64,000 bases of DNA from Pseudodesulfovibrio cashew (GTDB lineage: Bacteria; Desulfobacterota; Desulfovibrionia; Desulfovibrionales; Desulfovibrionaceae), in NCBI RefSeq assembly GCF_009762795.1, contig NZ_CP046400.1:1403501-1467500 (forward strand). Direction: 5' to 3'. Below the pieces are notes generated by a model. That model was not told the origin of the DNA and made no database searches. It saw only the letters and a list, made by a program, of their open reading frames with translations. The stretch's first letter is position 1. Each line of letters begins with the position of its first letter. A program made the position numbers and the translations under genes. This document shows, piece after piece, positions 22,529-28,232 of the stretch.

Positions 22529-22570
22529 TTGTTTTTGGGGGCTCGCCCTGCTTGAATGAACTTTATTGAA

Positions 22571-22612
22571 GAGCTGCCCCCACTTTCTCGGGAAGTGGGG
22601 GCAGCTCTTTTT
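22571..22612 (+). terminator. intrinsic terminator after the glycine-zipper gene
   Basis: Perfect 15-bp stem (22571-22585 with 22593-22607), seven-base loop and five T residues. Confidence 0.92.
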
Positions 22613-22644
22613 CTGTTGAAGTGTTCTGTTTCTCTTCCTTCGGG

Positions 22645-23304
22645 AATCGCGCTTGCAGCGCGGGAGAGTCGGTGTTGGAGCGTGCCGCTCCTCCACCTTC
22701 AGGCTTCGCTTTGCGAAGCGAGAGCCGGGTTTGGGAACTGCGCTCCCAAAAGCCCTCCATGCCCTCCCGGCGGGGTCCATTTCTTTTGCTGCGCCAAAAG
22801 AAATAGACGAAAGAAAAGGCGCTTGGAGGGGTATCCTCGCCCCGGTGCTCGCTGGCGAGAATCTCATCCAACCCGGTCGGCTCCGGACTTCGTTGAGTGG
22901 AACGTTCTGCCAGTCTTATTATTCGGAGTCCGTCCGACTCCGTGCGTATCGCGGCCAAAGAGCCGCCCACCGGGTTGGTGAGCTTCTATGCCCGTGAGCA
23001 AGGGGCTGACTGCGGACCTTTGAAGGGAAAGGCGAAGAGCCGAATTGATCTTTCTTATTCATTACGGAGTGCTAGCTTGATTTATCGGCAAGGGAGATTG
23101 CCGTCCACGGCAAGTTGCCAATCACCCCGCAATGACCGGTAATCGAGCTCGGGGCATAGAGCCGCTTGGCACGGCTGTAGTGCCGCCTGAAGCGCGACTG
23201 CACGGCAGGCTTTCGCTTTTCGGGCAACGGAAGCCGTGTTAGCGGCTCTTAGATCACAAGATCACGCTGCAGCACAATAAAGCGCGTCTTTTGCTTACTT
23301 TTGG
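22645..23304 (+). repeat. long structured intergenic repeat, copy A
   Basis: About 660 bases, non-coding, present again inverted at 27553-28232. A central stretch of about 105 bases (22745-22850) is identical in both. It is a chain of hairpins, among them ATTTCTTTTG-CTGCGC-CAAAAGAAAT and a nested structure at 23158-23249. At three hairpin positions the two copies differ in sequence but keep pairing: for example TTGGGA/TCCCAA here against TTGGGGG/CCCCCAA in copy B. Reading frames in it are Arg/Pro/Ser-rich and not gene-like. Confidence 0.85.
23158..23249 (+). other. nested stem-loop at the 3' part of repeat copy A
   Basis: Outer stem AGAGCCGCT (23158-23166) with AGCGGCTCT (23241-23249); next GCACGGCT with AGCCGTGT; inner GCCTGAAGCG with CGCTTTTCGGGC; apical hairpin CTGC-ACG-GCAG. 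Copy B has the same architecture with pair-preserving changes (G-T to A-T, T-G to C-G). Whether it acts as RNA or DNA is unknown. Confidence 0.6.
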
Positions 23305-23581
23305 ACGCGCCAGCCCAGCGGTAGCCGTTGGCGAGTCTTCAAGCCTTACGGATAGCGACAGCAGAACAAAGTCAGTCGCCCCGAAAGGGGCGAAATCCTT
23401 TCCCCATCAATCGCCGCCGACAGGCGGCTTCCTTTTCTCTTCTCTAAATCGCAGCATCGCATGCCGCCTCACCCCGGCGGAGAGCCTGGTTGGGGGCTAC
23501 TCGACGTATCCGCCGAATAAATCGGGCATTTCCCATCCGAAGGGCGTTTTTTATTCTTTGTTTGTCTGGATTATAAAATAA
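23305..23581. other. intergenic DNA before lrp
   Basis: About 280 bases with small hairpins (CGCCCC-GAAA-GGGGCG near 23377 and CGCC-GACA-GGCGG near 23412) that recall REP-type units, then AT-rich DNA toward the lrp promoter. No gene seen. Confidence 0.45.
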
Positions 23582-27373: not shown

Positions 27374-27541
27374 GGCAGCCTCACAGGGTTGGGGGGTGGA
27401 TGGTTCAGAAGGTAGCCTTCCGGCGGGTAAAGTCAAGTGGGTGAGGGTATAGTCTCCGTTGAGGGAGAAAAGAAGAAGCGATAGGGAAGCCGCCTTTTAG
27501 GCGGCGATGATTGCTTTGAGGATTTCGTCCCTCCGGGCCGA

Positions 27542-27575
27542 CTTCCTTTTTGGCTGAGCCGCTCCAAAAAGGAAG
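27542..27575. repeat. 12-bp perfect hairpin at the end of repeat copy B
   Basis: CTTCCTTTTTGG (27542-27553) and CCAAAAAGGAAG (27564-27575) around a ten-base loop. Copy A keeps only one arm of it, so the element boundary differs between copies. Confidence 0.75.
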
Positions 27576-28232
27576 CAAAAAGATCGGCTTTTTTTGTGCT
27601 GCAGCGCGATCTCGGACCTAAGAGCCGCTAACACGGCTCCACTGCCCGAAAAGCGAAAGCCTGCGGGCAGGCGCGCTTCGGGCTATGCTTCACCGTGTAA
27701 AAGCGGCTCTAAGCCTCGAGCTCGATGGCCGGTTGCTGCCGGGGAGATTGGAAATTTGCCGAAGGTGGCGATGGTCCTCTACCCGGCAAGTCGAGGTGTC
27801 ACCTCTGTACGATTCAAAAAAAAACAATCCGGCTCATTGAATATCTCTTCAGAGGTCCGCAGTCAGCCCCTTGCTCACGGGCCTAGAAGCTCACCAATCC
27901 GTTCGGCGGCTCTTGTCCCGGAACCCGCACGGAGTCGGACGGCCTACGAATGATAAGGCTGGCAGAGCGTTCCACTCCACGTAGTCTGGAGCCGACCGGG
28001 TTGGATGAGATTCTCGCCCGAGAGCACCGGGGCGAGGATACCCCTCCAAGCGCCTTTTCTTTCGTCTATTTCTTTTGGCGCAGCAAAAGAAATGGACCCC
28101 GCCGGGAGGGCATGGAGGGCTTTTGGGGGCGCAGCCCCCAAACCCGGCTCTCCGCGCGCTGCAAGCGCGATTCCCGGAGGGGGAGGAGCGGAACGCTCCA
28201 ACACCGGCTCTCCTCGTGCTGTAAGCGCGAAC
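27553..28232 (-). repeat. long structured intergenic repeat, copy B (inverted)
   Basis: The inverted partner of the element at 22645-23304. The two copies face each other with their nested stem-loop ends inward and enclose lrp, ald, the AI-2E permease and lysE. Conserved blocks include the hairpin of TTTCTTTTG/CAAAAGAAA and the tract reading GAGCAAGGGGCTGACTGCGG on the minus strand. A middle stretch (about 27720-27860) differs completely between copies. Confidence 0.85.
27621..27710 (-). other. nested stem-loop of repeat copy B
   Basis: Outer stem AGAGCCGCT/AGCGGCTCT (27702-27710 with 27621-27629), then ACACGG/CCGTGT, then GCCCGAAGCG with CGCTTTTCGGGC and an apical GCCTG-CCCG-CAGGC. Each stem is kept relative to copy A although several bases differ. 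Confidence 0.6.

Follow-up and report, generated by a model that had tools for sequence, protein, structure and literature searches.

Among the closest described systems are the REP, BIME and REPIN repeats associated with RAYT (TnpA-REP) transposases, which are built from palindromic units of 20–40 bp (PMC2817692, PMC3116915, PMC3733652, PMC8266576) and bear a GTAG or CGTC tag next to the palindrome. In this study, we analysed a repeat of Pseudodesulfovibrio cashew, an element of ~800 nt found in a 64,000-nt stretch of the chromosome (hereafter the window). Like those repeats, it is a high-copy, extragenic, folded repeat with inverted pairing of units and mosaic composition; yet it is assembled from modules of ~48 and ~92 nt rather than a 20–40 bp palindrome, it ends in pseudoknots, and a Y1 transposase is absent from P. 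cashew and several element-rich relatives. MRSC-65-2, one of the "mobile/repeat sequence candidates", is described as one long stem carrying UYCCGG repeats; many copies per genome, inconsistent orientation, a co-varying stem and an undecided RNA or DNA form are common to both (PMC11109978), but our element has multiple helices with two inverted pseudoknots and does not consist of a single long stem. BRE, a beta-proteobacterial repeat of ~90 bp (63.7–78.9% G+C in Bordetella), is likewise described as dispersed, tandem, variable in copy number, usually intergenic and present in Comamonadaceae (PMC3110155), and a Variovorax record matches a head-bearing locus in our own survey; unlike BRE, the head module has 44% G+C and the element is far longer, a separation drawn from the published description. 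With MITEs and the ERIC and RU types, the element shares short non-coding sequence, inverted ends and intergenic location (PMC2229807, PMC2759123), and inverted terminal structures of the MITE kind are present, both a head and an inverted tail being detected at 14 of the 23 P. cashew loci. In contrast to MITEs, the ends co-vary as pseudoknots rather than being fixed inverted repeats. No target-site duplication or parent element was found, the empty sites being too diverged for a duplication to be read, and none of the 23 copies has an internal gene. The ornate RNAs GOLLD, ROOL and OLE, finally, are comparable as large multi-domain non-coding structures (PMC12286853), whereas our element has no Rfam 15 match, many copies per genome and an inconsistent orientation.

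A preliminary description of the window had singled out a 92-nt nested stem-loop, and its coordinates proved exact: AGAGCCGCT at 23158–23166 pairs with AGCGGCTCT at 23241–23249. This stem-loop is not free-standing; it is a module of the 3' domain of the gene-free repeat, and supplies the 3' repeat unit with its structural core. The alignment gives the order of parts as 5' hairpin modules, conserved head, middle part, variable stretch, stem-loop, tail and terminator-like hairpin. For the window copy that holds it (copy B) and a second one (copy A), the features are:

22640..23445 (approximate limits), plus strand: whole element, copy B, ~806 nt, 58% G+C; limits from the 23 P. cashew copies and the element-free junction in five relatives
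22640..22760, plus strand: 5' series of short hairpin modules, their number varying per copy; copies differ in letters and still pair
22775..22822, plus strand: head module, an H-type pseudoknot whose stem 2 co-varies across heads
22775–22788/22795–22808, plus strand: head stem 1
22791–22795/22818–22822, plus strand: head stem 2
22809–22817, plus strand: A-rich linker of the head
23147..23262 (approximate span), plus strand: outer helix P0 around the stem-loop
23158..23249, plus strand: nested stem-loop, helices P1–P4, from folding energy and cross-species covariation
23282..23375, minus strand: tail module, inverted pseudoknot design
23282–23287/23305–23310, minus strand: tail stem 2'
23294–23304, with decayed partner 23367–23375, minus strand: tail stem
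23316..23366, plus strand: optional internal module of ~51 nt, in 3 of 23 P. cashew copies (L001, L004, L023)
23413..23437, plus strand: terminator-like hairpin, followed by a T-rich stretch, at the element's 3' end
23459..23498, plus strand: apparent remnant that looks, by eye, like a second unit's beginning when set against unit starts in L004 and L017
27486..28289 (approximate limits), minus strand: copy A, with head 28050–28097, stem-loop 27621–27710 and tail ~27541–27590

Helix P0 is mostly broken in copy B and better preserved in other copies and species; the copy B tail is split by the ~51-nt insertion, and our tail-detecting script missed it. The whole element (816 nt) folds with a z of −8.0, a value equalled by 0 of 20 shuffles. 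No gene was found inside any of the 23 copies with a codon model trained on 83,492 P. cashew codons, and a coding function was rejected for want of any coding signal.

Within P. cashew, the comparison of the two window copies reads as the preliminary description had it: the outer stem is identical in copies A and B (the copy A stem-loop being minus-strand 27621–27710), the inner stems differ by G-T/A-T and T-G/C-G replacements that keep pairing, and two 5' hairpins differ in letters and still pair (GCTTCGC/GCGAAGC and TTTGGGA/TCCCAAA in copy B; CGCGCT/AGCGCG and TTTGGGGGC/GCCCCCAAA in copy A). The inner-stem differences are all one-sided: within the 92-nt hairpin they yield consistent pairs and do not amount to double compensation. 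Moreover, the stem-loop is nearly invariant in this genome, with a mean column identity of 93% in the alignment of 21 copies (A2; L016 and L023 were excluded from A1 and A2 as incomplete), so that the two window copies say little about selection on the fold. The window copy of the stem-loop (148 nt) reaches −65.8 kcal/mol, whereas shuffled versions give −52.6 ± 3.5, with 0/200 as low (z −3.75). Across the P. cashew copies of the 3' domain, the covariation term is only −0.25, and 6 of 71 predicted pairs are changed on both sides in some copy.

The idea of a selected fold, originally drawn from copies A and B, is partly supported: maintenance of the fold has its support from other species, and the A/B pair alone does not prove compensation. 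The cross-species sample comprised 135 matches, 109 after removal of antisense or overlapping ones and 91 unique, from which L081 was then dropped (L005 and L081 were omitted from the anchored analysis of P0/P1). Relative to the window-copy structure, 539 of 802 changed cells still pair, versus a mean of 27% and a maximum of 45% in 300 tree-based nulls. Helix by helix, changed cells remain paired in 134/138 cases for P1, 135/140 for P4 and 148/240 for P3, each above every null; P2, at 112/268, is not above the null (32/300 as high), a shortfall we attribute to misalignment, and P3b, counted within the 539/802, gives 10/16 with 26/300 nulls as high. Anchoring on the conserved TAGAGCC/GGCTCT reveals the extra outer helix P0, and one P1 position displays all four Watson-Crick pairs (GC 17, TA 27, CG 13, AT 2; 60 distinct combinations). 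In a sequence-only alignment of 24 hairpins, hand-chosen from 16 genomes out of the 91 (A5), 90.7% of 744 cells pair (0/500 shuffles), compared with 28–47% for slid partners, and both-side changes occur in 19 of 31 pairs; of five measures, four were reached by 0/500 shuffles and one by 1/500. Covariation thus has statistical support in bulk across species, but not from the strict per-pair tree-based test, in which no pair attained E<0.05 and the best, in P1, had E=0.17, a result we ascribe to the small number of independent lineages. With the per-pair test null and P2 not above its null, maintenance of the stem-loop fold across species is nonetheless supported.

The two ends of the element have a design of their own. 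Head stem 1 is a pyrimidine/purine stem, TTTCTTTTG/CAAAAGAAA, with co-varying extensions, and its loop pairs downstream to form stem 2. For stem 2, 35 of 45 distinct loop/downstream combinations, partly non-independent as several differ only beside the stem, form at least five Watson-Crick pairs (GCGCC/GGCGC, GGCCC/GGGCC, GGGGC/GCCCC, AAAGCAG/CTGCTTT and TCGCC/GGCGA are examples), versus 16% of swapped combinations and with 0/2000 permutations matching. On the opposite strand the tail repeats the head design with its own co-varying second stem, in combinations that include GCGCGT/ACGCGC, AAGGCGT/ACGCCTT, CAGAGCG/CGCTCTG and AAAGCGCT/AGCGCTTT; where the script detected both a plus-strand head and an inverted tail, the modules are 546–600 bp apart, start to start. 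By eye, UUUUCUUU on the complement strand of the head module runs alongside AAAAGAAA with parallel polarity and in Hoogsteen register; where heads are swapped (L180 minus, L188 plus), a C/G position shifts in all three strands. The head linker could form an in-register triple helix, which is only a suggestion since independent swaps are few. Head and tail could also be symmetric regulatory structures, not transposon ends. A reading that dispenses with selection on the fold, in which compensation is mimicked because gene conversion, together with quasi-palindrome correction by template switching within inverted repeats, rewrites the two arms jointly, would accommodate the nearly perfect Watson-Crick arms, the homogeneity within the genome, a G-T count that does not exceed A-C within P. 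cashew and the long near-perfect inverted pairs seen in Pseudomonadota. It explains poorly, however, the co-variation of pseudoknot stem 2 or of the tail, as well as a conserved architecture with interior loops, and we give it little credence.

If a plus-strand RNA were the selected form, G-T should outnumber A-C among imperfect pairs. Between species the counts are 35 v 14 cells and 30 v 12 genome-by-pair combinations, or 21 v 12 with one frequent T-G pair removed. Among the 23 P. cashew copies there is no G-T excess over the 16 kept helices (55 v 95 cells; 25 v 30 derived types), and the whole plus-strand fold gives G-T 263 v A-C 253 cells. Inspection by eye of oriented heads gave A-C in about six lineages and G-T in none for stem 1, and about five G-T v two A-C for stem 2. 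Sense and antisense strands fold equally well, the sense fold being the lower one in 10 of 23 copies. The picture is mixed: the between-species counts lean moderately to plus-strand RNA, whereas the P. cashew copies show no such lean; these dispersed copies, lacking a G-T excess, may simply be decaying. Given the mixed counts, one strand as the sole structured strand was rejected. A known RNA family was also discarded, as the window has no match above the gathering score in Rfam 15, and lenient scans of the element and 15 Pseudomonadota loci returned only sub-threshold matches to other families.

These observations bear on whether the repeat is a multi-copy, large structured non-coding RNA of the ornate type, to which HEARO belongs alongside GOLLD, ROOL and OLE, its fold selected because the RNA works and its copies spread by duplication. 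Such an RNA would agree with the strong fold (z −8), the stem-loop covariation, the terminator-like 3' hairpin and the between-species G-T excess (30 v 12). It would also agree with the behaviour of head stem 2, where 5 of the 10 combinations below five Watson-Crick pairs reach five when G-T is allowed (one of the five being a re-parse of a head otherwise at four). Yet the region has 1 promoter-like site versus 0.4 ± 0.7 in shuffles, orientation to neighbours is inconsistent, antisense folds equally well, the G-U preference is absent within the P. cashew genome and Rfam offers no match; overall, we regard a working RNA of this kind as unlikely.

In the P. cashew genome (G000), a DNA search recovered 43 matching pieces at 23 principal places, the other 22 principal copies being 72–87% identical to the window copy. 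DNA matches were found in 28 of 35 same-genus genomes and in 1 of 24 genomes of other genera, a sharp drop outside the genus; under stricter filters, the stem-loop covariance model detected 18 of the 35 same-genus genomes besides P. cashew and none of the 24. Copy numbers across the genus range from no match to dozens, and relatives carry the 3' domain as tandem repeats of about 314–414 bp (G032, for example, at 385 bp and G002 at 379 bp). In the draft genome G022, hairpin matches occur within ~300 bases of the start on contigs C1, C12, C15, C16, C20, C26, C29 and C31; the repeat may thus interrupt assemblies, and copy counts from drafts may be underestimates. No element match was found among phages or plasmids, and carriage by either was rejected on that basis; the P. 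cashew-type head pattern occurs on 0 viral contigs and the Pseudomonadota-type pattern on 2. The open-licence literature searched yielded no description of the element, an absence that is no proof of novelty.

The 23 P. cashew copies lie between convergent genes in 11 cases, genes of the same direction in 9 and divergent genes in 3 (own gene caller; L015 possibly misread), with no consistent orientation relative to the neighbours, on which ground a 3'-UTR element of one strand was rejected. An existing terminator can precede a copy, as at 22568–22613 and in further cases by eye. Upstream of lrp, no element was detectable in 20 of 20 relatives examined (of 22 same-genus genomes with the gene). 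In five of them (L203, L204, L206, L209, L211) a glycine-zipper gene ends 182–361 bp before lrp, a spacing too short to hold the element. The window copy was accordingly gained in the P. cashew lineage or lost elsewhere; if gained, it landed just behind the terminator of the glycine-zipper gene, upstream of lrp. No target-site duplication is readable at the window junction, the nearest empty sites being too diverged. The excess of convergent over divergent sites (11 v 3 of 23), the symmetric inverted modules and the terminator-like hairpin would be expected of a bidirectional device at gene tails, whose inverted pseudoknots halt read-through or shield the 3' ends of converging transcripts. We consider such a role improbable, however, as copies can come after an existing terminator, relatives do not conserve the window copy between the orthologous genes and the clustering around the origin is left unexplained.

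This clustering was assessed relative to dnaA-like genes. At least two DnaA-family matches occur in each of 10 genomes, the lower-scoring one falling below the family's curated cut-off; those of P. cashew lie at G000:C1:1138183-1139451 and 2660063-2661391. In G000, G032 and G034, GC skew switches at the second, lower-scoring dnaA-like gene (coarse sampling, every 200–400 kb). Among the places listed, which are not complete counts, 84 of 90 in eight genomes fall on the half of the chromosome closest to the origin-linked dnaA-like gene, and in a ninth genome, G004, only 3 of 7. A service as origin-domain sites, in nucleoid organisation or segregation, would account for the 84 of 90, but G004 departs from it, copy number varies from none to dozens within one genus and the window copy has no fixed position, and this role appears highly improbable. 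Separately, at ~2010 kb of the P. cashew chromosome (L166) a 20-kb sample has 47.8% G+C, versus 56–64% in the other 19 samples, and is possibly foreign DNA.

Comparisons of related genomes place several elements at or near rearranged DNA. Of five elements in G007 set against six stretches of G010, L267 keeps both flanks at L268, with one versus three head units; the flanks of L263 and L264 sit at two different G010 elements; L266 matches on one side only, and L265 was not placed. Elements at L263, L264 and L266 versus L269–L272 coincide with rearrangement breakpoints between the two genomes; G010 is a single contig but G007 comprises ~20, so misassembly at repeats is possible. A ~5-kb inversion separates G034 from G024 and G035, and only one of its two ends bears an element. 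G024 and G035 are ~98% identical; in the three 20-kb stretches compared, neither lacks a copy, though in two of these stretches the genomes differ at or next to elements. Near an element, G034 has 334 bp (L257:10507-10840), not element sequence, that both G024 and G035 lack.

A scan of genome contigs with the head pattern matched Pseudodesulfovibrio sp. OB3 and, unexpectedly, Vogesella oryzae (4 matches). The pattern occurs in 8 of 398 sampled Pseudomonadota genomes including Vogesella, that is, 7 of 397 others, one of which (G186) is without a matching stem 2; among 297 sampled genomes of the P. cashew phylum it was found only in P. cashew itself, and a control pattern gave 0 among the matches listed. 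Convergent inverted head pairs, 465–612 bp apart, are present in 4 of 17 scanned Pseudomonadota loci (L180, L181, L187, L188), and divergent pairs in 2 of the 17. Head-type repeats occur at L152:2275-2440 (Vogesella oryzae) and in L176–L192, some inverted pairs being nearly perfect. The bodies of these loci differ from the P. cashew element, and we therefore make no claim of shared descent for the whole element. One head-bearing Pseudomonadota locus matched no phage record, and its single plasmid match is one record of Variovorax, a genus of the family Comamonadaceae.

Overall, we suggest that the element is probably a non-coding, non-autonomous, dispersed mobile-like repeat with a selected, folded single-stranded form. 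This is the most economical account, REPIN-like in behaviour, without RAYT and with far larger, pseudoknot-bounded units, and it is favoured by gene-free units, lineage-specific presence in synteny, the tandem 3' domain, few sites between divergent genes and the origin-half bias. Several results count against it. No transposase could be linked to the element: PF01797 (Y1_Tnp) has 0 matches at E<=0.001 in G000, G002, G006, G024, G027, G032 and G034, and is present in other same-genus genomes. Nor did the stretches compared between the near-identical G024 and G035 show an insertion polymorphism, no target-site duplication was readable, and DNA matches drop sharply outside the genus. Mobilisation of the RAYT/IS200 kind was rejected, Y1_Tnp being absent from G000. 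For such a mobile-like repeat, it is plausible to hypothesize that the inverted pseudoknot ends would be recognised as folded single strands, in the form of ssDNA at replication forks or of a transcript, that an enzyme supplied by the host would copy the unit into the space behind genes and terminators, and that the dispersed copies might then recombine, giving rise to changes in unit number and to inversions.

More speculatively, and on balance doubtfully, the repeat may represent a new class of mobile element defined by shape: bounded by two inverted, triple-helix-capable pseudoknot ends, common to Desulfobacterota and Pseudomonadota, moving in folded, single-stranded form, establishing itself in the origin half and reshaping the chromosome through inversion between copies. 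What started as a hunch on two copies is now a testable family. If the proposal is true, the folded end holds its form as its letters diverge and turns up again, inverted, at the opposite end, as well as in a second phylum; mobilisation would then depend on a factor able to recognise three-dimensional structure, and such repeats would be tied to chromosome architecture by the breakpoints and the origin-half bias.
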